Assembly (NCBI GenBank): GCA_041879295.1
Contig: CP047152.1
Location: 5,709,501 to 5,773,500, forward strand
DNA from: Pseudomonas putida
GTDB lineage: Bacteria; Pseudomonadota; Gammaproteobacteria; Pseudomonadales; Pseudomonadaceae
Length of the DNA stretch: 64,000 nt
Direction: 5' to 3'
In this document: positions 29,517-62,847 of the stretch, in pieces
Layout of the letters: each line of letters opens with the position of its first letter
How positions within the stretch are numbered: the stretch's first letter is position 1
The notes under the pieces: model-generated
What the model was told of the DNA's origin: nothing
The model's input: the letters and a program-made list of their open reading frames with translations, nothing else
The model's database searches: none
Program-made: the position numbers and the translations under genes

Positions 29517-31041
29517 TTCTCCAGACTTTGCGTAGTTTCATCAAGGCCTCGGCTATCTCGCCCTCCGGCACCGCAGCAAAGCCCAACACCAGGCCTGCCC
29601 GTTTATCCACAGGCGCCTCGCTGTCCGCCAACCAGAAATTGCTCAGTGGCGTCACCTCCACCCCCACCGCCTCGGCCTTGGCCACCAGCTCCTGTTCCCG
29701 AGCAAAGTTATCCACATCGACCTTCACATGCAGCCCAGCCGCCACTTCCAGCATTGCGCCCAACCCCGGAATATCCACAGGCCAACCGGCCATGAGCACA
29801 TCGCGCCGCTTCAACGCCGCCTTGCGCATGCGGCGGATATGCCGCTGAAAATGCCCTCGCGCCATGAACTCGGCCATCACGCACTGGCTGCTGACCTCCG
29901 AATGCCGTACCGCCAACGCTTTGCCCTGGCTGAACGCCTGCACCAGACTTGGTGGTAGCACCAGGTAGCCCAGACGCAACGCCGGGAAGGCTATCTTGCC
30001 GAAAGTACCGACATACAGCACCCGCCCGTGCCGGTCGAGCGCCGCCAGCGGGGCCAGCGGGGCACCGCTGTAGCGATACTCGCCGTCGTAGTCGTCCTCG
30101 ATGATCCAGCCGCCACTGCGTTCAGCCCAGGCCAGCAATGCCAGGCGACGTGCAAGGCTCATGGTCACCCCGGTCGGGTATTGGTGCGCAGGCGTGACAT
30201 AGGTCAGCCGACAATCCGTCAACTGTTCGAGCCGGTCGCAGTCCAGCCCGTCTTCATCCACAGGTACGCCAACCACCCGCCCCCCCGCGAGCGTGAAGGC
30301 ATGCGCGGCCGCCCGATAGCCTGGGTTTTCCACAGCCACACCGTCGCCCGATTGCAGCAGCAACTGTGCACAAAGGCTGATGGCCTGCTGCGCACCGCTT
30401 GTGATCACAATTTGTTCAGCTGTGCAGTTCAGCCCCCGCGAGCGGCGTAAGTAGGCCGCAATCAGATCGCGCAAAGCCGGTTCACCTGCCGGGTCACCAT
30501 AGCCCAGTTGCGCAGGGGACGGGTTGCGCCAGAAACCCGCCTGTAGCTTGGCCCATACGTCAAACGGGAACAGGTCGAATGCCGGAATGCCGACTCGAAA
30601 TGCACGCGGCGCGCCACTTCTGGGAGGTGGTAAATGGTTGCTTTTCAGGCGCTGCAGAGGCTCACGGAAAAGTCTCTCGCTGGATAAATCCTCAGTATTT
30701 TCTTCAGGAAATGTGGATAAACCTGTTGATAAGCATAGGGATAACCCTGTGGATACTTCTGTGGACAGTTTGGGCAGTAGGCTAACGTAAGTGCCATCGC
30801 CGACCCGACTTTCGATGAAGCCCTCGGCATACAGCTGATCATAGGCGCGCACCACGCTGTTGCGTGAAAGCGCCAACATGGCAGCCAGGTCGCGCGTGGC
30901 CGGCAGCCGCGTACCACTGCTCAGACGCCCATCCAGTACCCGTGCTCGCAACGCCTGATACAGCTGCTGGCTAAGCCCGCGGCGGCGATCAAGGGCAATC
31001 CCGGCAGGGTCGAAAGGCAGTATGAGGGGGGACTCACTCAT
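29512..31041 (-). CDS. MocR-type regulator (GntR HTH fused to aminotransferase fold)
   Basis: 509-residue MocR/PdxR-type regulator: GntR winged helix (about 15-85), a linker, and a class I aminotransferase-like domain (about 145-505) with a PLP-lysine motif TFGKIAFPALRLGY. The linker (residues about 90-110) is a four-residue repeat of the form LST-x, encoded by five exact 12-bp repeats. It diverges from a PaiB/GNAT operon, with an inverted repeat between them. It likely senses PLP or an amine and regulates the divergent operon. Confidence 0.88.
   Translation of the reverse strand: MSESPLILPFDPAGIALDRRRGLSQQLYQALRARVLDGRLSSGTRLPATRDLAAMLALSRNSVVRAYDQLYAEGFIESRVGDGTYVSLLPKLSTEVSTGLSLCLSTGLSTFPEENTEDLSSERLFREPLQRLKSNHLPPPRSGAPRAFRVGIPAFDLFPFDVWAKLQAGFWRNPSPAQLGYGDPAGEPALRDLIAAYLRRSRGLNCTAEQIVITSGAQQAISLCAQLLLQSGDGVAVENPGYRAAAHAFTLAGGRVVGVPVDEDGLDCDRLEQLTDCRLTYVTPAHQYPTGVTMSLARRLALLAWAERSGGWIIEDDYDGEYRYSGAPLAPLAALDRHGRVLYVGTFGKIAFPALRLGYLVLPPSLVQAFSQGKALAVRHSEVSSQCVMAEFMARGHFQRHIRRMRKAALKRRDVLMAGWPVDIPGLGAMLEVAAGLHVKVDVDNFAREQELVAKAEAVGVEVTPLSNFWLADSEAPVDKRAGLVLGFAAVPEGEIAEALMKLRKVWRK
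29603..29716. repeat. Two perfect DnaA boxes in the MocR gene
   Basis: TTATCCACA at 29603-29611 and 29708-29716, with one-mismatch copies at 29771, 30254 and 30326. Part of the regional excess described under findings. Confidence 0.85.
30712..30768. repeat. Five-unit 12-bp tandem array of DnaA-box-like sequence
   Basis: Units begin at 30712, 30724, 30736, 30748 and 30760: TGTGGATAA (perfect reverse DnaA box), TGTTGATAA, TAGGGATAA, TGTGGATAC, TGTGGACAG, each plus three bases. They encode the LST-repeat linker of the MocR protein. Confidence 0.9.
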
Positions 31042-43714: not shown

Positions 43715-44122
43715 GTGGAAGAAGTGATCGAACAACTCCGTGAAGCGAATGAGCCGGTACCGGTGCCCTTGGAGCTTCCCGACGAAGACCAACTGGTAGA
43801 GATCGAAGAGCAGCTGTTCATCAATATTCCATTCGTGTTCAAAGAGTTTCTGCTGACCGTAAGTGATGTGGTTTACGGCTCCCTTGAGCCTGTTACCGTC
43901 ACTGATCCGCAGTCGCACACCTACCTGCCAGATGTGGCATCCAATGCCTGGGATGCCGGCGTACCGCGTGACCTGATTCCGCTGTGCCAGGACGGCGACA
44001 ATTACTATTGCGTCGAAGAAGACGGCACCGTGGTGCTGTGGGATGCCGAAGAGGAAATTGTCGGCGAAGACAGCTGGGAATCGGTGTGGCACTGGGCGCG
44101 AGATGTTTGGCTGGAGAGCTGA
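43715..44122 (+). CDS. SMI1/KNR4 (SUKH) family protein
   Basis: 135-residue acidic protein with the SUKH fold pattern: LPDEDQLVEIEEQLFINIPFVFKEFL (about 20-46) and LIPLCQDGDNYYCVEEDGTVVLWDAEEE (about 87-114). Superfamily members are often immunity proteins for secreted nucleases, but no toxin is adjacent and the gene is widely kept in pseudomonads, so a housekeeping role is possible. Start is GTG at 43715 with GAGGAAG upstream. Confidence 0.8.
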   Translation: MEEVIEQLREANEPVPVPLELPDEDQLVEIEEQLFINIPFVFKEFLLTVSDVVYGSLEPVTVTDPQSHTYLPDVASNAWDAGVPRDLIPLCQDGDNYYCVEEDGTVVLWDAEEEIVGEDSWESVWHWARDVWLES

Positions 44123-44195
44123 TCGCTAGAGCCTATAGAGAAGCTCGCGATCTGAGGCAGGAAAAATGACGTCTTAGCGCGTCAAGGTCGTTAAA

Positions 44196-44220
44196 TCGCC
44201 AGGCTTTCCACGCCTGGCGA
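44196..44220. terminator. Stem-loop after the antiporter gene
   Basis: TCGCCAGGC / GCCTGGCGA with a seven-base loop, between convergent genes; followed on the minus strand by ATTTAA. Confidence 0.6.
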
Positions 44221-44276
44221 CATCGCTATAGCCCATCTTCTCGGCGAACGGGAGATCTTGCCTCGGGCGCAACCCC

Positions 44277-46037
44277 TCAGTGCGAGTTTTCGCGACTGTT
44301 CTCCAGCGTCTCCAACAACGCGATCTGCATGCGCGTGTGCACGCGGATGAACCAGCGCCACAACAACGCCACCACCACCGCAGCCACCACGGCAATCACC
44401 AGCAGCAATTCGCTGGTGGGCAGAATGCTGGCGGACAATGCCGACAGCAGCAGGAAAATCACCAGCAGCGACAACAGCGGGATCACTTCGGCGATCACAC
44501 GGCGCACGCGCTGGGTATGTCGCCCGGCCATTTCCGGCTTCACGCCCATCTCTGCCAGTAGCATCGAGAGTGCCTTTAGCTTGCGGTACGCGGCGATCAG
44601 GAAAGGCAGTGACAGCAGCAATGCAGCCCCCCAAATGATGGCCTTCTGCTGGCTTACATCGCTGACCCACTCACTGAGCCAATTGCCGATACGCCCTGCA
44701 AAGTAGCCGCCACTGAAGAAGATGGCGATCACCAGCGCCAGGTTCACCCCCACCTGCAACAGGATGCGCCGGATCATCGCCGCCAGCATGGCACTCTCGC
44801 CCTGCGGCTGGATGTTGCGCAACCACTCACCATATAAAGACAGCACGCGTGCGAGGCGAGCGGGCACCACATTGCCCAGTTTCTGCGACAACGGGTCAGC
44901 CGCGCGGATCAGGTAGGGTGTCAGCAGCGTAGTGATTGCCGATACTGCCACCGCCACCGGGTAAAGGAAGTCGCTGGTCACCTGCAGGGTCATGCCCAGC
45001 GCGGCAATGATGAAGGAGAACTCGCCGATCTGCGAAAGCCCCATGCCAACACGCAGTGACGTGCGCCCATCATTACCGGCAATGAACGCCCCCATGCCAC
45101 AAGACAGCATCTTGCCCAGTACCACCGCCAACGTAATGACCACGATCGGCCAGGCATAGTCGAGGAGCACCTGAGGGTCAATCATCAGACCAATGGCGAC
45201 GAAGAAGATGGCGCTGAAAAGGTCGCGTACGGGCTCGATCAAGCGTTCAATTTTCAATAGCTGCCGTGATTCGGCCATGATCGCGCCAATCAGGAAAGCG
45301 CCTAGCACCATGCTGTATTCCAGCTTCACTACCAGCAGGCAGAAGCCGAAACACAGGCCCAGAACGGTGATCAGCAACATTTCGTTGCTTTCGAACCTGG
45401 CGACGTAGGCCAATAACCGCGGCACCAGCAAAATACCGATGACGAGGGCGACGATCATGAACAGCGACAGTTTGCCGACAGTGGAGAACACCTCACCCGA
45501 GCTGACCGTGCCGCTGACCGCGATACCTGACAGCAGGGCAATGATACCGATGCCAAGAATGTCCTCGACGATCAACACGCCAAAAATCAGCTGGGCAAAG
45601 CGCTCGTTCTTCATCTTCAAGTCGTTGAGCGCCTTGACGATGATGGTGGTGGAGGAAATGGCCAGGATGGCGCCCAGGAACAGTGAATCCATGGTACTCC
45701 AGCCAAACCAGCGGCCAATCTCGAAGCCGATCCAGATCATCAGCACGATTTCCAGAAACGCTGCGATAAATGCCGTGGCGCCGACCTTGAACAGCTTGCG
45801 CAGGCTGAACTCGAGCCCCAGACAGAACATCAAGAATATAACCCCCAGTTCGGCGAGGATCTTGATGGTTTCTTCGTCATGAATCAGACCGAACGGGGGG
45901 GTGTGCGGGCCAATGATGAAGCCGGCGACAATGTAACCCAGCACCACCGGCTGTTTGAGGCGGTGAAAAAGAATGGTGACGACGCCAGCGATCAGCATGA
46001 TGACTGCCAAGTCCTGGATGAAGCTGATGGCATGCAT
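44277..46037 (-). CDS. CPA2-family cation:proton antiporter
   Basis: 586-residue membrane protein. About 12-13 helices (about 5-410) carry CPA2 motifs including FLMFCLGLEFSLRKL, AISSTTIIVKAL, GVLIVEDILGIG (conserved Asp) and GAFLIGAIMAES. A C-terminal part (about 410-586) with further helices resembles mechanosensitive-type or YbaL-like extensions but no TrkA-N domain is seen. Likely K+/H+ or Na+/H+ exchange. ATG 46037 follows AAGGAG; the in-frame upstream extension lacks one. Confidence 0.88.
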   Translation of the reverse strand: MHAISFIQDLAVIMLIAGVVTILFHRLKQPVVLGYIVAGFIIGPHTPPFGLIHDEETIKILAELGVIFLMFCLGLEFSLRKLFKVGATAFIAAFLEIVLMIWIGFEIGRWFGWSTMDSLFLGAILAISSTTIIVKALNDLKMKNERFAQLIFGVLIVEDILGIGIIALLSGIAVSGTVSSGEVFSTVGKLSLFMIVALVIGILLVPRLLAYVARFESNEMLLITVLGLCFGFCLLVVKLEYSMVLGAFLIGAIMAESRQLLKIERLIEPVRDLFSAIFFVAIGLMIDPQVLLDYAWPIVVITLAVVLGKMLSCGMGAFIAGNDGRTSLRVGMGLSQIGEFSFIIAALGMTLQVTSDFLYPVAVAVSAITTLLTPYLIRAADPLSQKLGNVVPARLARVLSLYGEWLRNIQPQGESAMLAAMIRRILLQVGVNLALVIAIFFSGGYFAGRIGNWLSEWVSDVSQQKAIIWGAALLLSLPFLIAAYRKLKALSMLLAEMGVKPEMAGRHTQRVRRVIAEVIPLLSLLVIFLLLSALSASILPTSELLLVIAVVAAVVVALLWRWFIRVHTRMQIALLETLENSRENSH

Positions 46038-46376
46038 GGCGTGATACTCCTTATCTCGTCTTTTTATGAATGCCTGGTCAGACCGCTCCTGCCGAGGCAA
46101 CCCTGAGCGAGCAGCAAGTACATACTGTATTGAATGCAGCGACGCCCATGTTGCATGGGCGCACTCAGGTTAACATCGCACTCCGCCGCTAAAAGTCGGT
46201 GCAATATGCAGAAACAGATCGGCTGGAAAAGCGCTCGTGATGGCATGATCAGCGTGACGACAGCGCGCCAGCCAACGTCCCGTATCAGCAAGGCAAATTC
46301 AAAGAGGGGAACAGAAGTGTCAGCAGATAACGCCCTCCATTCGCCCGATTCAGCGCAACCTCACCGTGAGCACACT
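46038..46376. other. 339-bp divergent intergenic region
   Basis: Promoter space between the antiporter and thioesterase genes. A 46124-46138 CTGTATTGAATGCAG resembles but does not match a LexA box. AGAGGGG before a GTG at 46317 could give the thioesterase a 20-residue longer N-terminus. No other element recognised. Confidence 0.5.
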
Positions 46377-46862
46377 ATGGAACCTGGAAACGCCCAGCTG
46401 AGCATGACCGTCCTGATGACCCCGGACATGGCCAACTTTTCTGGCAACGTACATGGCGGCACCCTGCTCAAGTACCTCGACGAAGTGGCTTATGCATGCG
46501 CCAGCCGTTATGCCGGCAGCTATGTGGTGACCCTGTCGGTCGACCAGGTGATCTTCCGTGAACCCGTACATGTGGGTGAACTGGTGACCTTCCTGGCGTC
46601 AGTCAACTACACCGGCAACACTTCGATGGAAGTTGGCATCAAAGTTGTGACCGAGAACATTCGCGAGCGCTCGGTGCGCCATTCCAACAGCTGCTTCTTC
46701 ACCATGGTCGCGGTCGATGACAACCGCCGCCCAGTGCCGGTGCCGCCGCGCCAGCCGTACAGCAGCGAAGAAAAACGCCGCTTCCTGCAGGGCCAGCAGC
46801 GCCGGCAGATCCGCCAGGAACTGGAAAAGCGCTACCAGGACCTGAAAACCGACGCCATTTAA
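46377..46862 (+). CDS. Acyl-CoA thioesterase, hotdog family
   Basis: 161-residue single-hotdog thioesterase: [33 protein letters not shown] carries the catalytic N...GG/D pattern of the YciA/BACH-like family; [15 protein letters not shown] follows. The C-terminal 30 residues are Arg/Gln-rich. Start ATG 46377 fits homologues; GTG 46317 is an alternative with a better ribosome site. Its end overlaps pdxY by four bases, convergently. Confidence 0.88.
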
Positions 46863-47731
46863 AGCGCCAGCAACTGCGCCTCGAAGCGCACCCGTGGGTG
46901 CGCAATGCGGTCCTGGGCCCGTACCAGCTGCAATTCGTAGCTGGCGCAGGCCTGGGTTTCCAGCAGCACTTCATGCACTGCCGCAGCGGTGAACTCGAAT
47001 GCCTGCACCCAGCTGTCGCCAAGCAGCACGCGGGCCAGGAACAGGCCTGAGGTCAGGTCACCCACCCCAACCGGCTGACGCGGGAACGCCAGCAGCGGGC
47101 GGCGCAGGTGCCAGCTGTGCTCGGCGGTCACCAGCAACATTTCGAACTGTTCTTCGGCCCGCCCGGGGTACGCCAGGTGCTTGACCAGTACAACCTGCGG
47201 CCCACGCTGCAGCAGGCTACGCGCCATGTTCACGCAATCCTCCAGCGACTGGGCGCGGCGCCCACAGAAGCTGTCCAGCTCCAGCTGGTTGGGGCACAGG
47301 ATGTCCGCCGTGGCTGCCGCCTCGTCAAGCAGGAACTCACTGACTTCCGGCGGCACGATGCAGCCTTTTTCCGGGTGCCCCATGACCGGGTCGCACAGGT
47401 ACAAGGCTTTTGGGTTTACCGCCTTGATCCGCTCGACGCCGGCCAGGATCGCTCGCCCTTGTTCGGCGCTGCCCAAATAGCCGGAAAGCACTGCATCGCA
47501 GTGGCCCAGCTCGCCGATGTTGGAAATGCCTTCCACCAACGCAGGAATTTGCGCTGGGGCAAGCACTTCACCCGCCCACTGGCCATACTGTGTGTGATTG
47601 GAGAACTGCACGGTATTGAGTGGCCAGGCATTGACCCCGATACGCTGCATGGGGAATACCGCGGCGCTGTTGCCGGCGTGGCCGAACACCACGTGGGACT
47701 GAATGGCGAGCAGGTGCGGGGTACGTTTCAT
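46859..47731 (-). CDS. pdxY: Pyridoxal kinase
   Basis: 290-residue ribokinase-fold enzyme of the PdxY type, phosphorylating pyridoxal for salvage of PLP. Landmarks: [39 protein letters not shown] and the catalytic [12 protein letters not shown] (anion hole/Asp). ATG at 47731; the frame runs open upstream through the divergent DUF3301 gene without family similarity. Confidence 0.95.
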
Positions 47732-47851
47732 GCGGGAGGTTTCCAAAGCTGTTTCAAGGATTGTGCGCAGCGCAGTATGAACTCGATTGCTACCTGTACG
47801 ACAGGCCAGGAACGCAGTTAAGCTGGATCTACCTGTTTGGAGCATATGCAA

Positions 47852-48244
47852 ATGTTGACCCTGGAGAACCTCTTCGTCCTGATGCTGGTAGCCACGGCAG
47901 GCGCTTGGTTGTGGCACAACCATGGGTTGCGTGAAAAGGCCCTGGAACGGGTCAAACAGCATTGCGCCAAACTCGACCTGGAGTTGCTTGACGATGCCGT
48001 AGCGCTCAAACGCATCGCCTTTGTCCGGGATGCCAATGGCCGAAAGCGCCTGGCACGCGTCTATGCCTTCGAGTTCACCGTCACGGGTGAGCAACGTCAC
48101 CCCGGCACCGCGACCCAGTTCGGCGCCCACAGTGTGCAGATCGAACTGGCGCCCTACCCGTTCGAAATCAAGACCCCACCACGCGCCGACAACGTCATAG
48201 AGATGCAGCAATGGCGCCAGGAACACAACCGCTGGCGCAACTGA
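47852..48244 (+). CDS. DUF3301 membrane-anchored protein
   Basis: 130-residue protein with one N-terminal membrane helix (about 5-22; [18 protein letters not shown]) and a basic cytoplasmic part containing [22 protein letters not shown], the DUF3301 hallmark. Function unknown. ATG 47852 is chosen because GGAG lies nine bases upstream; ATG 47846 is too close to it. Its stop abuts the stop of the convergent CobW gene. Confidence 0.82.
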
Positions 48245-49216
48245 TCAACTGACGCGACATTCATTCAACCCGGCTTGCAACGCGGGTTGCGGTTGCGGCT
48301 GATCGAAAATCAGCTCGATACGGCTGTCCCTGCGCCAGTCGCTGGGCTGCCAAGCGGGCATATCCCCATTCAGCCCATTGAATGACCACCAGCCTTCCAT
48401 GCTGTGGATAACGCCCTTCGCCCGTCGCCATGGCCATGCACATAAGAAAACCTTTAGCCGCTGTGGATAAAACTGTTGGCCAGGGTGCCATCGCCAGCCA
48501 ATACTCCAACCGCCCTCCCCTTGCTGGACAAGGCAAATCGGCTGACTGGGGTCAGCCCACAGTGCTGCTGGGGCGATTGCAGGATTGTCGACAATCCTGC
48601 TTTTCAAAAACGGGCTGTCAACAATCTGTGGAGGCACCGTCGGGAGGCCGGCCAAAGGCAGCTGCCCTTGCACGGTCCACATGATCCTCTTTTCTTTAAA
48701 TTTATTACTTATCAACAATTTATGTATTTCATCCACAGCCTCTGACTTATTAAAAACCACGCTTTCAGAGGCGTTGAAAGCCTGCTGTTGAGCCTCTGGA
48801 AGCGGCTCGTTTCGAGCCATGGCCTGGGCATCCACAACCATCAGAAGTGGTTGAATTGTCAGCACTCCAACCCAAGGCGCCTGTTGCAACTGAGCCAGCA
48901 GCTGCAACGGATGGCCCAGGCCGGAAGGTTCGATAAACAGCCGGTCAGGCCGGGATTTGCGCAGTAAACGGCCGAGGCCGACCTGAAACGGCATACCGTT
49001 GACGCAGCACAGGCATCCGCCCGCCACCTCGCCGATGGCGATGCCGTCTTCGTCACGGCTGAGCAAGGCTGCATCCAGGCCGACCAGGCCGAACTCGTTG
49101 ATCAATACCGCCCAGCGCTCGTTTGCAGGGCGCTGGGCCAGCAAGTTACGGATCAAAGTGGTCTTACCAGCACCCAGCGGGCCAGCAATTACATGGGTGG
49201 GAATGTTCTGCAACAT
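48245..49216 (-). CDS. CobW-family GTPase / zinc metallochaperone
   Basis: 323-residue G3E P-loop protein: Walker A GPLGAGKTT (about 12-20), metal-binding GGCLCC (CxCC type, about 66-71), SGLGHP and NKSEAVDE (NKxD-like). Relatives insert zinc into client proteins under zinc limitation. Third gene behind a Zur box. Its DNA is peculiar: it contains two perfect DnaA boxes, a 22-bp perfect palindrome and an 18%-GC stretch that encodes a Lys/Ile-rich segment unlike the rest of the protein. Confidence 0.88.
   Translation of the reverse strand: MLQNIPTHVIAGPLGAGKTTLIRNLLAQRPANERWAVLINEFGLVGLDAALLSRDEDGIAIGEVAGGCLCCVNGMPFQVGLGRLLRKSRPDRLFIEPSGLGHPLQLLAQLQQAPWVGVLTIQPLLMVVDAQAMARNEPLPEAQQQAFNASESVVFNKSEAVDEIHKLLISNKFKEKRIMWTVQGQLPLAGLPTVPPQIVDSPFLKSRIVDNPAIAPAALWADPSQPICLVQQGEGGWSIGWRWHPGQQFYPQRLKVFLCAWPWRRAKGVIHSMEGWWSFNGLNGDMPAWQPSDWRRDSRIELIFDQPQPQPALQAGLNECRVS
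48579..48600. repeat. 22-bp perfect palindrome inside the CobW gene
   Basis: GCAGGATTGTC followed directly by its reverse complement GACAATCCTGC, then TTTT. The core ATTGTCGACAAT resembles GntR/FadR-type operators. Confidence 0.85.
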
Positions 49217-49256
49217 GGCGTGGCTTCAGGCGGCGGTGATGCCTCACTATGCGCTG

Positions 49257-49883
49257 TCAGGCCAGCCAGTCAAGGCTGAGCAGCAAACGCCCCTGCTGTG
49301 CCGAAGGCGACCGATGAACCAGGCCTGCCCCTTCATTACCCCGCCATTTTTCGCCTTTAAGTATCGCCACCTCGCCGGCTTGCAGGTGCTGGATGTTATC
49401 CACAGATGGCTGAGCTGTGTGTAACTCACTACGACAGCTATCCTGCTCTTGCAACCACTCGCTACCTGGGCCGACGTAAGTGGTGAGCAGGCGCAATGGC
49501 ACGTTATCCACATGGAAACGCGGGCACATCGGAGCGTTCAGAACGCGCAAGCGCAAACCGATCCGTCGGGCGCCAACCAGACAGGTATAAGCCGCCACCA
49601 ACCAGGTCACATCAGCAACGAAAGCTTCATATCCATGCAAATCCGCCGCTTCACGCAGCAGATCTGCCAATACCGGCTTCTGCTCCTCGTCCACATCGAT
49701 CACCCGCTGATCAGCCAAGGGCTGGCCAAGGCTGATCACCAATGCTGCAAAGTCCTCCAACTGTGGAGGCAAGCGCCGCCGCCATACGGCCAGATTCACG
49801 CCATCCTGCAGCACTCCGGCCAGCACCTGAGGCGTCTCGCCAAACACCTGAAAGATATCCACAGGCCGGTGCGCCAGGTTCAT
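49257..49883 (-). CDS. DUF1826 domain protein
   Basis: 208-residue protein of the DUF1826 family (about 30-200): conserved blocks [32 protein letters not shown] and GLVHRSP. Cys and His residues ([15 protein letters not shown]) suggest a metal or cofactor site. In pseudomonads it accompanies zinc CobW genes. Overlaps the upstream CobW gene by four bases (ATGA), so they are translationally coupled. Biochemical role unknown. Confidence 0.82.
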
Positions 49884-51088
49884 GCTGCCGCCTCCTCATG
49901 CCATGGGCCAAATGGATCAGGTAGGCGCAACCAGCCCATGTGGCCCAAGTCCATTTCTTGATCCGTCAACAGGCATGCATCGAGGGCTGTGGATAATTTT
50001 TCGAAGTCGATATTCTGCCCGATAAACACCAACTCCTGGCGGCAGTCACCAGTCTCAGCGGTCCAGTGTTTCAAGATCGCGGTCGTGTTATCCACATCCT
50101 GTGGCCACTGCTCGCGTGGCACGAAGCGCCACCAGCGGCCAGCCAGACCCTGTCGCATCATGCCGCCCGCTTGCGACCAGCTGCCAGCTTCCTGATATTT
50201 GCTGGCCAACCAGAAAAAGCCTTTGGAACGCAGCAGCCGTCCGTTGCTCCAGTCCGTGTGGATAAAGTCGTAAAAGCGCTGTGGATGAAGCGGCCGTCGA
50301 GCCTGCCAGGTCATGGCCGCGATACCGTACTCTTCGGTTTCTGGCACATGCTCACCGCGCAGCTCCTGCAACCAGCCTGGTGCTTGGGCCGCCTGATCGA
50401 AGTCGAACAGCCCGGTGTCGAGGATACGTGCCAGCGGCACTTGGCCCATGACCATGGGTACGATCTGCGCCCGGGCATTGAGGCTGCGCAAAATGGCGAT
50501 GAGTTCGTCGCGCTCATGTTGGCTGATCAGGTCGATCTTGCTCAGCAGCAGCACATCTGCGAACTCGACCTGCTCGATCAGCAAATCACTGATCGACCGC
50601 TCGTCTTCTTCGCCCAACGTTTCACCGCGGCTGGCCAGGCTGTCTGCTGCCTGATAGTCGCGCAGGAAGTTCAAGCCATCGACCACGGTGACCATGGTGT
50701 CCAGCCGCGCCATATCAGACAGGCTGCGGCCTTGTTCGTCGCGGAAAGTGAAGGTCTCGGCCACTGGCAATGGCTCAGAGATACCGGTGGACTCGATCAG
50801 CAAATAATCGAAACGCCCTTCTTCGGCCAGCCGCGCAACCTCCTCAAGCAGGTCTTCGCGCAACGTGCAGCAAATGCAGCCGTTGCTCATCTCGACCAGT
50901 TTCTCTTCAGCGCGGTTGAGGCTCACATTGCGCTGCACCTCGCTGGCATCGATGTTGATTTCACTCATATCGTTGACGATAACCGCGACCCGAAGGTTGT
51001 CGCGGTTGCGCAGCACATGGTTGAGCAGCGTGCTCTTGCCGGCGCCGAGAAAGCCGGACAGCACGGTGACGGGGAGACGATTGGACAT
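49880..51088 (-). CDS. CobW/ZigA-type zinc metallochaperone GTPase
   Basis: 402-residue G3E GTPase with Walker [16 protein letters not shown] metal motif (CxCC), ESTGISEP and SKIDL, and the C-terminal CobW_C domain (about 275-390; [12 protein letters not shown]). Similar proteins (ZigA, ZagA, YeiR) deliver zinc under starvation. ATG 51088 has GAAGAGG upstream; it starts 47 bases downstream of a Zur-like palindrome. First gene of a three-gene operon. Confidence 0.92.
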
Positions 51089-51134
51089 GGCGAACCTCTT
51101 CAGGCAGACGCATTCGAAACGATGCATTGCATAA

Positions 51135-51149
51135 TGTTATAAGATAACA
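51135..51149. promoter_or_regulatory. Zur box
   Basis: TGTTAT-AAG-ATAACA palindrome, matching the gamma-proteobacterial Zur operator core (GTTATnnnATAAC), just upstream of the CobW operon. Predicts induction by zinc limitation. Confidence 0.85.
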
Positions 51150-51202
51150 ATACACTTTCGCCAAGTGGTTCTCGACGGACGAGTGCTCACAGGGGATGAA
51201 AA

Positions 51203-51583
51203 ATGAATCTGCCACGCGTCATGGCATTGTTGTTGCTCACCATGCCCGCCTCGCTGTTGGCCATGCCGCAAGGCAGTAAATTGGCCCTCTGTACGCGAAG
51301 CGCGACGCTACTCGCCTGCCAGGACGGCAAAGGCAACTACTACAGCGTGCGCACCGAAGGCACCACCTTCTACCTTCGCGGCTACGACTTCACCAGCCGC
51401 CGACTGTGGGCACAAACCAACAGCCGCTATGGCACGTTGACTTTTTTTACCGGCTTGGCCAGTGATGGTGAGACCTGGGTGGGTTACAGCCGTCGCGTAG
51501 GCTGGACCACCTTGAACCGCGTATCCAGTTCCAGCGGGGAGCGCTTCAAGGTGCATTGCAGCTTGATCGAGGGTTGCCGTTGA
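51203..51583 (+). CDS. Small exported protein, unknown function
   Basis: 126 residues: signal peptide (about 1-20, ending SLLA), then a small domain with four cysteines (C30, C39, C119, C125) and repeated aromatic beta-strand patterns (TTFYLRGYDFTSRRLWAQ, GETWVGYSRRVGWTTLNR). Glyoxalase- or C-type-lysozyme-inhibitor-like folds are possible; none is recognised with confidence. It diverges from the Zur-box operon. Confidence 0.7.
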   Translation: MNLPRVMALLLLTMPASLLAMPQGSKLALCTRSATLLACQDGKGNYYSVRTEGTTFYLRGYDFTSRRLWAQTNSRYGTLTFFTGLASDGETWVGYSRRVGWTTLNRVSSSSGERFKVHCSLIEGCR

Positions 51584-51730
51584 CGCCTTCTTTTGTTTGG
51601 AAGGCTTTTCCTCTGCTGCCTATTTGCACGTCAGCTTCGAGCACTTGCTGAAAACGCCGGCCTTGATCAGCTCTCCGTCAGGCCGAAAAGCTAAGCCGCA
51701 ACCACATCGAGGCAAGGACCGAAAATGAAA

Positions 51731-51746
51731 TGTTCCACGTGGAACT
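51731..51746. other. parS chromosome-partitioning site
   Basis: TGTTCCACGTGGAACT contains the palindrome GTTCCACGTGGAAC, the Pseudomonas version of the ParB-binding parS core (consensus TGTTNCACGTGNAACA). It lies in a 271-bp intergenic region. Pseudomonad parS sites cluster near oriC, which agrees with the gene content. Confidence 0.9.
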
Positions 51747-51854
51747 ATTCGTTTCCCGACCGACTCCTGGAACTACCCAGGCTCGGCTGCTCGAACGACA
51801 GCAGAGGCCTGCATGCCCACGACGGGGTTGCCACCAGCCATTGGTAATGGAACT

Positions 51855-52382
51855 TCAGCTGCGCGGTTTGACCGCCCCGCAGTCATTGCCTAACCACACC
51901 GCACGCGTGTTCATGCTGCCTTGCTGCTGCACACCCGAAGCGTTGAACGTGCCACTGACCTGGGTGGTGAATTCCCGATCACTGAGGAATGTAGCCTTAC
52001 CACTTCCCTGCGCCTTCGGGCAGCTGAACTGAAACTTCCAAACGTTACCGGTACGGTCGGTAATCTTCTGCGTGCAGCCCGATTGCGGGTCTTGCAGAGG
52101 AATGTCATTCGTTGCCACCTGTTCTGGTGTCAGGCACGAACGCACACCCTTGCCACCTACACTGACCCCTTGTTTGGCCAACACCCCTTCCATCATTGCG
52201 CGCTGCTCGGGCGGCAGGTTTTTCAACTGGCCGAGCATGAATTCCATGTCGGGTAGCGGTTTGCCATCGACCAGCATGTTGCTGGTGGTCAGCTCCCACA
52301 AACCCGGTTGCAGCATCTGGGCTTGCACCAGCGGACTGCTCATGCCTAGGGCCAACGCCAACAGTGGCAGACGAATCTTCAT
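51855..52382 (-). CDS. DUF3617 exported protein
   Basis: 175 residues: signal peptide (about 1-21, ending VQA), then the DUF3617 pattern QPGLWELTTSNM, CLTPEQV, GCTQKITDRTGNVWKFQFSC and NTRAVWLGNDCG. A periplasmic protein of unknown function, common in proteobacteria. Divergent from cls. Confidence 0.87.
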   Translation of the reverse strand: MKIRLPLLALALGMSSPLVQAQMLQPGLWELTTSNMLVDGKPLPDMEFMLGQLKNLPPEQRAMMEGVLAKQGVSVGGKGVRSCLTPEQVATNDIPLQDPQSGCTQKITDRTGNVWKFQFSCPKAQGSGKATFLSDREFTTQVSGTFNASGVQQQGSMNTRAVWLGNDCGAVKPRS

Positions 52383-52514
52383 GGATGAACGCTCCTGGAA
52401 AAAAGCCGGTCAAACGGGCCGGACTGAGCCTTAGACGCCAAATCCACCTGCAGGTTGCAGGCGGACCGGGAACGTGTTCTGTTACCTCAAGTGTACTCGG
52501 CAAGCAGGATGCAT

Positions 52515-53954
52515 ATGGATTACCACAGCCCCTACTTCTTTGGTTACCTACTCGGCCTGATCCACCTGCTGGGTATGGTCGCCGCACTGCATGCGCTGTT
52601 CACGGTGCGGACAGCTCAGGGGGCCATTGCGTGGGCGATGCCCTTGCTCTTCATCCCCTACCTCACCTTGATCCCCTATCTGATTTTCGGTGCCCGCTCG
52701 TTCTATGCCTACATCAAGGCTCGGCGTCAGGCCAACCAGGAAATGCACGTGGCCATGGCCAACCTCAACTGGCGGCCCTGGGTTGAAGAAGCCCTTACCG
52801 CTCGCGAGTCCGAAAGCTACACAGCCTTGCGCGCCATGCCCAAGCTGGGTCGCATGCCATGCCTGGCAAATAACCAGGTGAAACTGCTGATCAATGGCAA
52901 GGCCACCTTTGATGCCATCTTCGCAGCCATCGAAAAAGCACGCGATGTGGTACTGGTGCAGTTCTTCATCATTCATGACGACAATCTCGGCAAGGCACTG
53001 CAGCGACTCTTGCTACGCAAAGCCGCCGAAGGCGTGCAGGTGTTCGTGCTGTACGACCGTGTCGGTAGCCACGCCCTGCCGGCCAGCTACAGCCAGGTGC
53101 TGCGCGACGGTGGTGTGCAGATCCATGCATTCGCCACCCGTCGCGGCTGGTTCAACCGCTTTCAAGTGAACTTCCGCAACCATCGCAAGATTGTGGTGGT
53201 GGATGGCTTGCTCGGCTTCATCGGCGGTCACAATGTGGGAGACGAGTACCTGGGTGAACATCCACAGCTTTCCCCCTGGCGTGACACCCACGTACAGATC
53301 AGCGGGCCGGTACTGGCCTGCTTGCAAGAATCTTTTGCCGAGGACTGGTACTGGGCCACGCGCCAGCTACCGCCGCTGATCCTGCCCGATACGTACCCGG
53401 ATAACGGCGTGCTGTGTCAGGCCTTGGCCAGCGGCCCGGCAGACCCACAAGAAACCTGCTCGCTGTTCTTCCTTGAAGCGATTCATTCGGCCACCCGCAG
53501 GGTGTGGATCACCAGCCCCTACTTCATCCCTGACGAGGCCGTGTTCGCCGCCTTGCGACTGGCGGTGCTACGGGGAGTCGATGTGCGGGTGCTGATCCCG
53601 TCACGGCCTGACCACCGCATCGTCTACGCTGCCTCCAGCCTGTTTGCCTTCGAAGCAGTTCGCGCGGGGGTACGTATGTTCCGTTACCAACCCGGGTTTC
53701 TGCATCAGAAGGTGGTACTGGTGGATGACGACATCAGCGCCATTGGAAGCGCCAACCTGGACAACCGCTCGTTCCGCCTGAACTTCGAGATTACCCTGCT
53801 GACAGTCGATCGCGGCTTCGCCGACCAGGTCGAGCACATGCTCCACGAGGACTTCGAACAAGCGCGGGAAATTACTGCAGAAGACACCCAGGACACCCAT
53901 CGACTACAGCAATTGGGGATGCGGATTGCGCGACTGATATCGCCGATTCTTTAG
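52515..53954 (+). CDS. cls: Cardiolipin synthase A
   Basis: 479-residue phospholipase-D-family enzyme that condenses two phosphatidylglycerols. Two N-terminal helices (about 5-60) are followed by two HKD motifs: HRKIVVVDG (about 223) and HQKVVLVDD (about 400), each with downstream GS/N residues ([17 protein letters not shown]). ATG at 52515 (M D Y H S) is preferred; AGGA lies five to eight bases upstream. An ATG two codons earlier is also in frame. Confidence 0.95.
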
Positions 53955-53972
53955 GGTGAGCACACCCGTTGA

Positions 53973-54000
53973 AAGCGGCCTTTTCGCGAAAAAGGCCGCT
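53973..54000. terminator. Palindromic REP-like hairpin after cls
   Basis: AGCGGCCTTTTCGCG / AAAAAGGCCGCT forms a long hairpin between convergent cls and cfaB, possibly a bidirectional terminator. Confidence 0.65.
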
Positions 54001-54037
54001 CCTGCAAAGCCATATCAGGGCTGTGACGCTTACGATT

Positions 54038-55222
54038 TCAGCGGTACAAGTCTTCCCGCGTCCAAGGCAGGTCATGATGCCCGTCGGCGTATGGCTTCAC
54101 TGCCAATATCTGGTGCAGGTTGATCCAGCCCTTCTGAAAGGCGTAGGCACACCCGGCCAAGTACAAACGCCAGATCCGCAGAGTCTTCTCAGGCACCAGC
54201 GCTGCTGCCTTGTGCAACTGGTTCTCCAGGTTCTCGCTCCAGTGGTGCAAGGTTTTAGCGTAGTGCAGGCGCAGGCTCTCTACGTCCACTACCTCCAGCC
54301 CAGCTTCACAGATACTGGCGCTGATCATCGACAGGTGCGGCAGTTCGCCGTGGGGGAATACATAGCGATCGATGAACTCACCCGCCCCGCGCCCGACCGG
54401 TCGGCCATCGACGTGCTTGGCAGTGATGCCGTGGTTCATCACCAGTCCCCCTTCCCTCACCGCCCCGAACAGCTTCTGGCAGTACAGCGCCAGGTTGGCA
54501 TGCCCGACATGCTCGAACATACCCACGCTGACAACCTTGTCGAAGCGACCATCCTGGGGCAGATCGCGGTAGTCGAGAATCTGCAGGTCGACCTTGTCAG
54601 CAAGCCCTTCCGCTTGCACTCGCTTGCGGCCTAACTTCAATTGCTCCTTGCTCAGGGTAATGCCGAACACCTTGGCGCCATACTCACGGGCAGCGAACCG
54701 CGCCAACCCACCCCAACCACAGCCGACATCGAGCAGGTAGTCACCGGCATCCAGACGAAGCTTGCGGCACAGGTGGTCGAACTTGTCCTGCTGCGCCTGG
54801 TCGAGCGTATTGTCCGGCTCACGGAAGTAGGCGCAAGAATAGGCCATGTCCTGGTCCAGCCAAAGCTGGTAGAAGGCGTTGGACACGTCATAGTGGTAGG
54901 AGATCGCTTTGGCGTCGGTGCTCTTGTCATGAGACAAACGTTGCGGTGGCGTTTCATCCTCATCCGCCAGCAGCGCTTCACTCAGTTCGTCGCACACGCG
55001 GATGGCCTCACCGATATCGCCTTCAAGCTCCAGCTTGCCTTCGACGAATGCAGTGCCCAGCTGGTCCATGCTTGGGTGGGTCAACTGGCTGATCAGCTGT
55101 GGTTCCTTGACCAGAATGGTGACCTGAGGACTAGGCCCAAGATCAAAATGGTTACCGTCCCACAGCTTCAGCCTCAGCGGCAGATGCAAGCTCTGCAATG
55201 CAGGTGGAAGTTGAGCAAGCAT
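54038..55222 (-). CDS. cfaB: Cyclopropane-fatty-acyl-phospholipid synthase
   Basis: 394-residue SAM-dependent methyltransferase that cyclopropanates unsaturated acyl chains of membrane lipids. SAM motif I LLDVGCGWGGLARFA (about residue 170), catalytic-region YSCAYF and MFEHVG are present. The ATG at 55222 has a very strong AGGAGG ribosome site (ACAGGAGGGG); further upstream in-frame codons are leader. In P. putida this is the main, RpoS-dependent stationary-phase CFA synthase (cfaB). Confidence 0.95.
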   Translation of the reverse strand: MLAQLPPALQSLHLPLRLKLWDGNHFDLGPSPQVTILVKEPQLISQLTHPSMDQLGTAFVEGKLELEGDIGEAIRVCDELSEALLADEDETPPQRLSHDKSTDAKAISYHYDVSNAFYQLWLDQDMAYSCAYFREPDNTLDQAQQDKFDHLCRKLRLDAGDYLLDVGCGWGGLARFAAREYGAKVFGITLSKEQLKLGRKRVQAEGLADKVDLQILDYRDLPQDGRFDKVVSVGMFEHVGHANLALYCQKLFGAVREGGLVMNHGITAKHVDGRPVGRGAGEFIDRYVFPHGELPHLSMISASICEAGLEVVDVESLRLHYAKTLHHWSENLENQLHKAAALVPEKTLRIWRLYLAGCAYAFQKGWINLHQILAVKPYADGHHDLPWTREDLYR

Positions 55223-55343
55223 GAAACACCCCTCCTGTCCGTAATTGGCCACGACGCCTAATATTTCGAACGTCATCGGATCAGAGTAGTTCATCTGTAG
55301 GATGTTTCCTCTAAGCAAGACCATGGTCTAGAACCAACTGATC

Positions 55344-55352
55344 TTATCCACA
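55344..55352 (+). repeat. Perfect DnaA box in the cfaB-lpd3 intergenic region
   Basis: TTATCCACA between the divergent cfaB and lpd3 promoters; the only perfect box outside a coding region. Confidence 0.8.
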
Positions 55353-55430
55353 CAGCAGATTGTATACAATTTCCGCATCTCAGCTTAACCTTGTGCCCCT
55401 CTCGCGCTTCTACATCCTGGAGTTGAACCC

Positions 55431-56831
55431 ATGAAAGTCTATGACGTGGTGATCATCGGCGGTGGCCCTGGCGGCTACAACGCAGCCATCCGTGCTGGCC
55501 AGTTGGGCCTGAGCGTTGCTTGCGTGGAAGGCCGCTCGACCTTGGGCGGTACCTGCCTGAACGTCGGCTGCATGCCATCCAAGGCACTGCTGCATGCTTC
55601 GGAGCTTTACGAAGCGGCCAGCGGTGACGAGTTCGCCCACCTCGGTATCGAAGTCAAGCCTACCCTCAACCTCGCCCAGATGATGAAACAGAAGGATGAG
55701 AGCGTGGCAGGCCTGACCAAGGGCATCGAATACCTGTTTCGCAAGAACAAGGTCGAGTGGATCAAAGGCTGGGGCCGCCTGGATGGCATCGGCAAGGTCG
55801 TGGTCAAGGCCGAAGACGGCAGCGAAACAGCGTTGCAGGCCAAGGACATCGTCATTGCCACCGGCTCTGAGCCCACCCCTCTGCCAGGTGTGACCGTCGA
55901 CAACCAGCGCATCATTGACTCGACCGGCGCGCTGTCGCTGCCGCAAGTGCCCAAGCACCTGGTCGTCATCGGTGCTGGCGTGATCGGTCTTGAGCTGGGT
56001 TCAGTCTGGCGCCGCCTGGGTAGCCAGGTCACCGTCATCGAATACCTGGACCGCATTTGCCCAGGCACTGACACGGAAACCGCCAAGGCCCTGCAGAAGG
56101 CTCTAGCCAAGCAAGGCATGGTGTTCAAGCTGGGCAGTAAAGTGACTCAGGCTACCGCAGGTGCAGATGGCGTCAGCCTGACGCTGGAGCCTGCCGCCGG
56201 GGATACCGCAGAATCGCTGCAAGCCGATTACGTGTTGGTGGCTATCGGCCGTCGCCCTTATACCAAAGGGCTGAACCTGGAAAGCGTGGGCCTGGAAGCC
56301 GACAAGCGCGGCATGCTCGGCAACGAGCACCACCGTACCTCAGTACCAGGTGTCTGGGTGATTGGCGACGTCACTTCGGGCCCGATGCTGGCGCACAAGG
56401 CCGAAGACGAAGCGGTGGCCTGTATCGAACGCATCGCCGGCAAGCCCCACGAGGTCAACTACAACCTCATCCCTGGCGTGATCTATACCCGCCCAGAGAT
56501 GGCCACCGTGGGCAAGACTGAAGAGCAGCTCAAGGCCGAAGGGCGTGCCTACAAGGTTGGCAAGTTCCCCTTCACCGCCAACAGCCGTGCCAAGATCAAC
56601 CACGAGACCGAAGGATTCGCCAAGGTCATCGCCGATGCCGAAACCGATGAAGTACTGGGTGTGCACCTGGTGGGCCCAAGCGTCAGCGAGATGATTGGTG
56701 AGTTCTGCGTGGCTATGGAGTTCTCGGCCTCGGCAGAAGATATCGCCCTCACCTGCCACCCGCACCCGACACGCTCCGAGGCCCTGCGCCAGGCGGCGAT
56801 GAATGTGGATGGCATGGCCATGCAAATCTGA
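55431..56831 (+). CDS. lpd3: Dihydrolipoyl dehydrogenase LPD-3
   Basis: 466-residue E3 flavoprotein that reoxidises dihydrolipoamide. FAD motif GGGPGG (10-15), redox-active disulphide GGTCLNVGCMPSK (C42, C47), NAD motif GAGVIGLELG and the C-terminal HPHPTRSEA (catalytic His-Glu) are intact. P. putida has three lipoamide dehydrogenases; the monocistronic copy at this location is LPD-3. No E1/E2 genes are adjacent. Ribosome site CTGGAG upstream of ATG 55431. Confidence 0.94.
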   Translation: MKVYDVVIIGGGPGGYNAAIRAGQLGLSVACVEGRSTLGGTCLNVGCMPSKALLHASELYEAASGDEFAHLGIEVKPTLNLAQMMKQKDESVAGLTKGIEYLFRKNKVEWIKGWGRLDGIGKVVVKAEDGSETALQAKDIVIATGSEPTPLPGVTVDNQRIIDSTGALSLPQVPKHLVVIGAGVIGLELGSVWRRLGSQVTVIEYLDRICPGTDTETAKALQKALAKQGMVFKLGSKVTQATAGADGVSLTLEPAAGDTAESLQADYVLVAIGRRPYTKGLNLESVGLEADKRGMLGNEHHRTSVPGVWVIGDVTSGPMLAHKAEDEAVACIERIAGKPHEVNYNLIPGVIYTRPEMATVGKTEEQLKAEGRAYKVGKFPFTANSRAKINHETEGFAKVIADAETDEVLGVHLVGPSVSEMIGEFCVAMEFSASAEDIALTCHPHPTRSEALRQAAMNVDGMAMQI

Positions 56832-61479: not shown

Positions 61480-62847
61480 TCAGCTCTTCTTGATCTTCTC
61501 AGGGCGCTTCCAGCCCGAAATGTTGCGCTGGCGTGCACGAGCTACAGCCAGGTCACCGGCTTCTACAACCTGGGTGATGGTCGAGCCGGCTGCGGTGGTC
61601 GCGCCGGCTTTGATTTCCACAGGCGCCACCAGCGAGTTGTTCGAACCGATGAACACGTCTTCACCCATCACGGTCTTGAACTTGTTGGCGCCATCGTAGT
61701 TGCAGGTGATGGTGCCGGCGCCGATATTGGTGCGCGCACCGATTTCGGCATCACCCAGGTAGGTCAGGTGACCAGCCTTGGCCCCTTCACCCAGGTGGGC
61801 GTTTTTCAGTTCAACGAAGTTACCCACATGGGCCTTGGCGTCCAGTACGCTGCCCGGGCGCAGGCGAGCAAACGGGCCTGCATCGCTGCCTTCTCCCATC
61901 ACGGCGCCTTCGAGGTGGCTATTGGCCTTGACCACCGCGCCTTTGCGCAGGGTCGTGTTCTTGATCACGCAGTTAGGGCCGATCTGCACATCGTCTTCGA
62001 TGACCACCTTGCCTTCGAGAATCACGTTGATGTCGATCAGCACGTCACGACCAACGCTTACTTCACCACGAACATCGAAGCGTGCCGGGTCACGCAGGGT
62101 AACCCCCTGAGCCATCAGACGGCGGCCTTCACGCAACTGGTAGTGACGCTCCAGCTCGGACAGCTGGCGGCGGTCGTTGGCGCCCTGCACTTCCATAGGG
62201 TCGTGCGGCTGTTCAGTTGCCACCACCAAGCCATCGGCCACTGCCATGGCAATTACATCGGTCAGGTAATACTCGCCCTGAGCGTTGTTGTTCGACAGGC
62301 GGCCCATCCAGTCGGCAAGGCGCGCGGCTGGCAGTGCCAGAATTCCGGTGTTGCCTTCCTTGATCGCTTTTTGCGCGTCGTTGGCGTCCTTGTGCTCAAC
62401 GATGGCAGTTACCTTGCCCTGCACGTCACGCACGATCCGGCCATAGCCGGTCGGATCATCGAGGGTGACGGTAAGCAGTCCCAGTTGCTGATCGTTGGCC
62501 TTCGCCAACAGACGCTGCAGGGTCTCCACTTCGATCAACGGCACGTCGCCGTATAACACCAGCACAGTGTCAGCGGTCAGCGCCGGCAGTGCCTGCGCAA
62601 CAGCATGACCGGTACCCAGCTGTTTATCCTGCATCACGAAATTCAGGTCGTCAGCGGCCAGGCGCTCGCGAACCAGTTCGGCACCATGGCCAATGACCAC
62701 ATGAATACCTTGCGGCTGAAGTTGGCGCGCGCTGTGGATAACATGGCCGAGCATGGAATTGCCAGCTACCGGGTGCAACACTTTGGGCAGCGCCGAGCGC
62801 ATGCGGGTGCCTTGGCCGGCGGCGAGAATAACGATATCGAGTGACAT
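61480..62847 (-). CDS. glmU: Bifunctional GlcNAc-1-phosphate uridylyltransferase / GlcN-1-P acetyltransferase
   Basis: 455-residue enzyme making UDP-GlcNAc, two steps after GlmS. N-terminal nucleotidyltransferase [22 protein letters not shown] (about 7-28) and C-terminal left-handed beta-helix of hexapeptide repeats (from about 250). A perfect DnaA box at 62733-62741 lies within the gene. Separated from atpC by a strong terminator. Confidence 0.97.

Follow-up and report, generated by a model that had tools for sequence, protein, structure and literature searches.

Why seven perfect DnaA boxes should be packed into 1.9 kb of coding DNA, inside an operon for zinc-related GTPases, was the question raised by this locus. 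The window, that is, the whole 64-kb stretch of DNA that was analysed, corresponds to C1:5709501-5773500 of a 5,789,152-bp Pseudomonas contig that starts with dnaA, and the seven-box cluster lies 29-31 kb from that gene. The perfect 9-mer TTATCCACA was found at all seven predicted positions, exact in letters and coordinates, within 1,863 bp. Two copies lie in the gene for GTPase 2 (48403-48411, minus strand, peptide VIHS; 48462-48470, minus strand, FYPQ), two in the DUF1826 gene (49396-49404, plus strand, SVDN; 49504-49512, plus strand, HVDN) and three in the gene for GTPase 1 (49988-49996, minus strand, LST; 50088-50096, plus strand, DVDN; 50257-50265, minus strand, FIHT). They are spaced 59 to 934 bp apart, and five of them are held in 870 bp (49396-50265). 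Their different peptides and their occurrence in all three codon phases across three genes, as originally claimed, were verified.

All three genes are read from the minus strand. GTPase 1 (49880-51127, 415 aa; Pfam cobW 4e-55, CobW_C 2.2e-23) and GTPase 2 (48245-49216, 323 aa; cobW 1.3e-39, CobW_C 6.7e-06) are of the CobW/COG0523 type, and the gene between them encodes a 208-aa DUF1826 protein (49257-49883; Pfam DUF1826 2.4e-63). Among named genomes, GTPase 1 had its nearest relatives in P. monteilii, at 97%, and in P. parafulva, at 93%, which puts the window in the putida group. A search with the Zur consensus gave a Zur-like palindrome, GTTATAAGATAAC, upstream of GTPase 1 (51136-51148, plus strand; 1 match compared to 0.00 expected). 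COG0523-DUF1826 gene clusters under Zur have been described in Pseudomonas (PMC2770081), and because of that description and the palindrome the zinc label is fair for this operon. An RNA element was rejected, there being no Rfam match in 44000-56000.

The expectation of well under one box per 64 kb was borne out by dinucleotide shuffles of the window, which gave a mean of 0.16 boxes (largest 2) compared to the 12 perfect boxes present. Besides the cluster, three boxes of the same field lie in a GntR/aminotransferase (MocR-type) gene at 29603, 29708 and 30712 (29603-30720), one lies at 55344-55352 (plus strand) outside the longest-ORF gene calls, and one at 62733-62741 (minus strand). The box was absent from the neighbouring cls, cfa and pdxY genes. 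When genes were shuffled so that the protein and the codon counts were kept, GTPase 1, with three boxes compared to 0.19 expected, was matched in none of 10,000 shuffles; the DUF1826 gene, with two compared to 0.39, in 293 of 10,000; and GTPase 2, with two compared to 0.21, in 121 of 10,000. The three boxes of the MocR-type gene were reached in 2 of 10,000 codon shuffles. The clustering itself was also rare: at least seven boxes in 1,863 bp occurred in 17 of 20,000 trials in which the 43 origin-nearest boxes were jittered by up to 25 kb, and in none of 5,000 trials (largest 6) in which all 113 chromosomal boxes were jittered by up to 100 kb.

Conservation was followed in codon alignments of 90 GTPase 1, 73 DUF1826 and 66 GTPase 2 sequences, window included, from Pseudomonas and near kin (some Stutzerimonas and Halopseudomonas). 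Eleven distant loci (L070-L080), L101 (the window again) and sequences covering less than 85% of the gene, carrying an internal stop or falling below 74, 45 and 50% identity for GTPase 1, DUF1826 and GTPase 2, respectively, were left out. Boxes were found at 17 alignment positions with 132 occurrences, whereas 300 permuted motifs averaged 0.19 positions (largest 3) and 0.41 occurrences (largest 12). The most widely kept was the 48403 box, present in 43 of 66 sequences where amino acids and codon usage predict 1.32, and a second GTPase 2 position, unused in the window, carried the box in 33 compared to 1.24 expected; these expectations ignore kinship, and the minimum number of changes on the GTPase 1 tree (which took in 63 of the 66 GTPase 2 and 71 of the 73 DUF1826 sequences) was 11 at each of these two positions and 1 to 5 elsewhere. 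The boxes are thus conserved beyond codon expectation.

The six other window boxes were confined to close relatives, at 3 to 8 sequences each: 48462 in 4 of 66 (window, L007, L001 and L005), 49396 in 8 of 73, 49504 in 6 of 73, 49988 and 50257 in 6 of 90 each, and 50088 in 3 of 90. Among the 9-mer windows of its gene, 48403 alone ranked high (98.8th percentile of conservation). Five others, being restricted to close relatives, ranked between the 6th and 53rd percentile, and the most common 9-mer at 49504 differs from the box. The number of boxes per operon was 8, 3, 5, 6, 7, 4 and 6 in seven putida-like operons and 0 to 3 in 50 others (14 without any), and the positions varied among the putida-like relatives. 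Box number is therefore better kept than place, and selection appears to act on the local number of boxes more than on their exact position.

The encoded peptides were then compared between sequences with and without the box. At the LST, DVDN, HVDN, SVDN/PVDN and FYPQ positions, the box peptide was absent from every box-free sequence, and at the FIHT/FIHK/FIHR position one such sequence had it, so that in six of the nine columns tested at most one box-free sequence carried it. The clearest case was position 49504 of the DUF1826 gene, where all six sequences with the box read HVDN and 65 of the 67 box-free ones read HVDH. In GTPase 2, by comparison, three positions had the peptide in box-free sequences as well (5, 6 and 9 of them), so that the amino acids there are not bound to the box. 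A replication signal can accordingly shape protein sequence, VDN and LST occurring at these sites almost only with the box. Codon shuffles, alignment expectation, permuted motifs and peptide comparison agree that protein sequence fails to explain the boxes, as had been proposed, and on these sequence comparisons we conclude that selection acts on the DNA 9-mer.

The surroundings of the locus are those of the replication origin. The DnaA gene starts at C1:4 with its RDHTTVLHACRK stretch intact, and four boxes at C1:5788785-5789056 adjoin it; oriC of P. putida has been placed between rpmH and dnaA (PMC3056050). The cluster does not have the position of an oriC, being approximately 30 kb from dnaA, whereas the four boxes adjoin that gene. 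In 10 genomes (own, G003, G005, G012, G015, G017, G019, G020, G059 and G060) the operon was found approximately 29-129 kb from dnaA, a count that leaves out G023 (a match of 65%, probably to a paralogue), G061 (at 785 kb, without an adjacent GTPase 2), G010, G014 and G018; among the genomes counted, there was no comparable case of an operon relocated far from oriC that could serve as a natural experiment. Sites with at most one mismatch to the parS consensus numbered three in total, at C1:3072, C1:3702 and C1:5761231. The last of these (51731-51746 of the window, plus strand, one mismatch) lies 1.47 kb from the last box, in agreement with the original statement of a parS 1.5 kb away. A terminus search with the dif consensus gave no match, and distances are therefore given from dnaA only.

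On the own genome 114 boxes were found compared to 13 for the reversed motif. Of these, 113 are chromosomal (100 positions from the genome listing and the last 13 from individual stretches), and 103 of the 113 lie within 1 Mb of oriC. Counted by distance from oriC, 25 boxes fell below 50 kb, 17 between 50 and 125 kb, 3 between 125 and 250 kb, 18 between 250 and 500 kb, 40 between 500 and 1000 kb, and 10 farther out. Box density was 250/Mb inside 50 kb compared to 1 to 5/Mb beyond 1 Mb, and was lumpy without a smooth gradient, with 12/Mb at 125-250 kb and 36-40/Mb at 250-1000 kb. The 235,652 bp around oriC held 42 boxes compared to a mean of 0.57 (largest 5) for 200 permuted motifs, and near the opposite side of the chromosome there was 1 box in 60 kb. 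Box density is thus far from uniform across the chromosome. With the boxes also conserved among relatives, two of the three outcomes named beforehand as refuting the proposal failed to appear. The seven-box cluster was the densest 1.9 kb of the chromosome, exceeding oriC (4 boxes) and the next densest stretch (5 boxes in 1.9 kb at C1:364591). As a special locus, it stands as the densest node, unusual even against the local background; it is not isolated but part of an origin-centred field.

Two other stretches of this chromosome were seen to be rich in boxes. The five boxes at G000:C1:364591-366482 (L154) include three outside crude ORF calls, and a similar spacing occurs at G057:C2:203955-205803. 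On the other side of oriC, G000:C1:82065-107660 (L087, L088) holds 16 perfect boxes and is the richest 26 kb of the chromosome. The strands were 27 plus and 32 minus on one arm and 24 and 30 on the other, respectively, without arm-specific strand bias. For 51 boxes in the stretches read, the surroundings differed, with a mild preference for G on either side (27 and 26 of 51), and the spread of a repeat element as the source of the boxes was rejected on account of these differing contexts. Outside the cluster the boxes lean intergenic: crude ORF calls cover 91% of the sequence, yet 15 of 51 boxes fall outside them, so that some boxes may have regulatory roles.

The enrichment was found in most of the genus. 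In the Pseudomonas sample, 49 of 59 genomes had at least five times as many boxes as the reversed-motif control (median 6.9) and 4 of 59 had less than three times as many, compared to 4 of 91 genomes at fivefold or more (median 1.7) in other families of the order. G015 carried 18 boxes in 140 kb near oriC compared to 0 in 60 kb far from it, and G019 carried 29 in 100 kb compared to 0 in 40 kb. In KUIN-1 (G059), among the matches listed (100 of 111), 85 lay no more than 1.05 Mb away and a single one at 2 Mb or beyond, the interval from 2.002 to 4.096 Mb being empty. The genus members G013, G014, G027, G028 and G054 had few boxes (16 to 32), so some Pseudomonas lines may have lost the field or may never have acquired it.

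Other arrangements of boxes were observed along these chromosomes. An inverted pair of perfect boxes 5 bp apart occurs approximately 1.44 Mb from oriC at G000:C1:4346020-4346042 (L151:2521-2543), and the same pair is present in KUIN-1 (G059:C1:1723664-1723686, L155:2465-2487) and at G057:C1:575909-575931. In L151 and L155 it sits inside a longer palindrome (AAGGTTATCCACA ... TGTGGATAACCTT) by a small gene (APWNF...); the pair may be a target of some other DNA-binding protein or belong to a promoter under DnaA control. In KUIN-1, four boxes on one strand were found within 0.55 kb, between ORFs (G059:C1:5541877-5542420, L156), and a similar group in W4I3 (G060:C1:131426-131949), both approximately 0.5 Mb from dnaA.

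Several explanations can be set against these data. That chance, codon usage or a spread repeat produced the 9-mers has a negligible probability: the counts in the DUF1826 gene and GTPase 2 would each, taken alone, be moderately unusual, but the permuted-motif and codon tests refute this account, and the window shuffles, the differing contexts and the peptide comparison also speak against it. A machine like datA of E. coli, in which the cluster and an IHF site would form a complex stimulating DnaA-ATP hydrolysis, so that spacing and IHF would matter, finds some footing in the sequence, since a single IHF-consensus match occurs in the cluster and the 8 kb around it, and this match lies inside the cluster (48710-48722, plus strand, in GTPase 2, overlapping TTATCAACA), in an AT-rich stretch (48670-48759); L001, L003, L005 and L007 have it at the corresponding place in the gene. 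It is missing in L002, L004, L006 and nearly all others, however, and 3-4 relatives (L006, L104, L105 and L106) bear a full DnaA box in its place. GTPase 2 genes held 6 IHF matches where 2.0 were expected, and two of the six lay in another part of the gene; judged from these sequences, 48710-48722 is easier to read as a variant DnaA box than as an IHF site. E. coli datA has five boxes and an IHF site, is non-coding, and keeps its boxes and spacings (PMC4585315). The Pseudomonas cluster is broadly similar in its dense DnaA boxes fairly near oriC (7 in 1.86 kb, 5 of them in 870 bp, where datA has about five in about 1 kb), but is coding, lacks a conserved IHF site or spacing and differs in box positions even among putida-like relatives, which makes such a machine improbable. 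Of the datA-like titration first suggested, titration remains the most natural reading, and the strict form with fixed boxes and a required IHF site is unsupported. The stretch at 48670-48759 has 27-28% GC inside a 58% GC region and is also found in L001, L005 and L007.

A role in organising the origin region, in which the boxes would keep DnaA close to the origin and, with ParB at parS, serve segregation or domain structure, or would act as a reservoir feeding oriC, would fit a box field centred on oriC and parS-like sites near it, one of them 1.5 kb from the cluster. Yet three parS-like sites compare with 113 boxes that extend to 1 Mb, shared position was the only tie found between the two, and such proximity would be expected of any origin-proximal locus; we regard this role as unlikely, if conceivable. 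Control of the zinc operon by DnaA through these boxes, although DnaA is a known transcription factor (PMC8203912), is very improbable. The seven boxes are all intragenic, even the one nearest to the GTPase 1 start lies approximately 860 bp downstream of it, the Zur-like site at 51136-51148 has none nearby, and the MocR-type gene and many others bear boxes. The suggestion that zinc-stress genes are tied to replication status thus found no support, the enrichment spanning unrelated genes.

The reading we favour, with some confidence, is that these are selected DnaA boxes forming the densest node of an oriC-centred field of approximately 1 Mb on each side, and that a DnaA sink is the most likely mechanism. 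Binding of DnaA to the boxes and a titrating effect are what we infer from their sequence and arrangement. Each initiation would quickly add to the high-affinity sites, of which the 236 kb around oriC hold 42, since most of the field is copied early; the extra sites would bind newly made and released DnaA, and this binding of free DnaA would delay re-initiation. Boxes would come and go inside genes at a cost in rare codons and amino-acid changes, one or two positions being retained across much of the genus. Against this reading stand the 14 of 50 non-putida operon copies without a box, the lumpy course of the density, the intergenic lean of the boxes elsewhere and the 4 of 59 genus genomes below three times the control. 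SeqA was not found in the own genome (the E. coli control was positive), and a DnaA-like protein of 271 aa, which may be Hda, was present. A wider proposal is that in most Pseudomonas a megabase-wide field of boxes in coding sequence is the main brake on re-initiation, replacing SeqA sequestration, with selection altering codons and amino acids of unrelated proteins while positions turn over and local density is kept; this we put forward tentatively, as a possibility that we would not yet expect to hold.

The boxes of the field are single. Among 51 boxes, a same-strand partner matching at least 6 of 9 letters at 2-3 bp was no commoner than at other offsets, and the best partner of the seven cluster boxes matched 5 of 9; a reading as double boxes, the type of target seen by ChIP in E. 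coli, was rejected for lack of any partner excess. In E. coli ChIP-seq, DnaA prefers box pairs 2-3 bp apart, and 13 of 32 consensus singles had a peak (PMC11317965). This singleness is the strongest point against strong DnaA binding at each box.

Groups of DnaA boxes outside oriC are known from other bacteria. DARS1 and DARS2 of E. coli are such groups and have a conserved core of three boxes (PMC4585315); the Pseudomonas cluster differs in lacking a compact core, its smallest spacing being 59 bp and its positions turning over. In Bacillus subtilis, boxes are likewise clustered outside but near oriC, and deletion of all six oriC-proximal clusters led to early initiation, which was read as DnaA being held there (PMC5295017, on Okumura 2012), although the same article elsewhere calls the clusters not significant for control. 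The Pseudomonas cluster is likewise a group of several consensus boxes in a short stretch outside oriC (7 in 1,863 bp, approximately 30 kb from dnaA), but its seven boxes are all coding and part of a 103-box field over 2 Mb. In E. coli and Salmonella, the surroundings of oriC are richer in boxes than in permuted motifs, an enrichment proposed and tested as titration (Olivi 2025, PMC12371093), and box density in Pseudomonas also peaks at oriC above permuted motifs. E. coli boxes prefer the lagging strand, as an extra feature and not a requirement (PMC12371093), whereas the own Pseudomonas chromosome is without arm-specific strand bias. Titration in the Pseudomonas field would follow the scheme demonstrated in E. 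coli (PMC12371093), to which the Bacillus deletions also point.

Clusters of DnaA boxes near oriC and origin-near enrichment are therefore known kinds. No report of an origin-centred box field in Pseudomonas was found in a search that covered mostly titles and the beginnings of abstracts, with bioRxiv and most subscription papers outside its scope. As far as these searches show, what is new is the occurrence of such a field in Pseudomonas, how strong it is when the strict consensus is counted, and its embedding in genes, where it affects amino acids. The idea of initiator titration is decades old but has resisted proof, in E. coli owing to the overlap of SeqA, RIDA, datA and DARS (PMC12371093). 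Pseudomonas would offer a clean test of titration, since boxes are approximately tenfold scarcer far from the origin than close to it, synonymous changes could eliminate them, and this member of the genus has no detectable SeqA.
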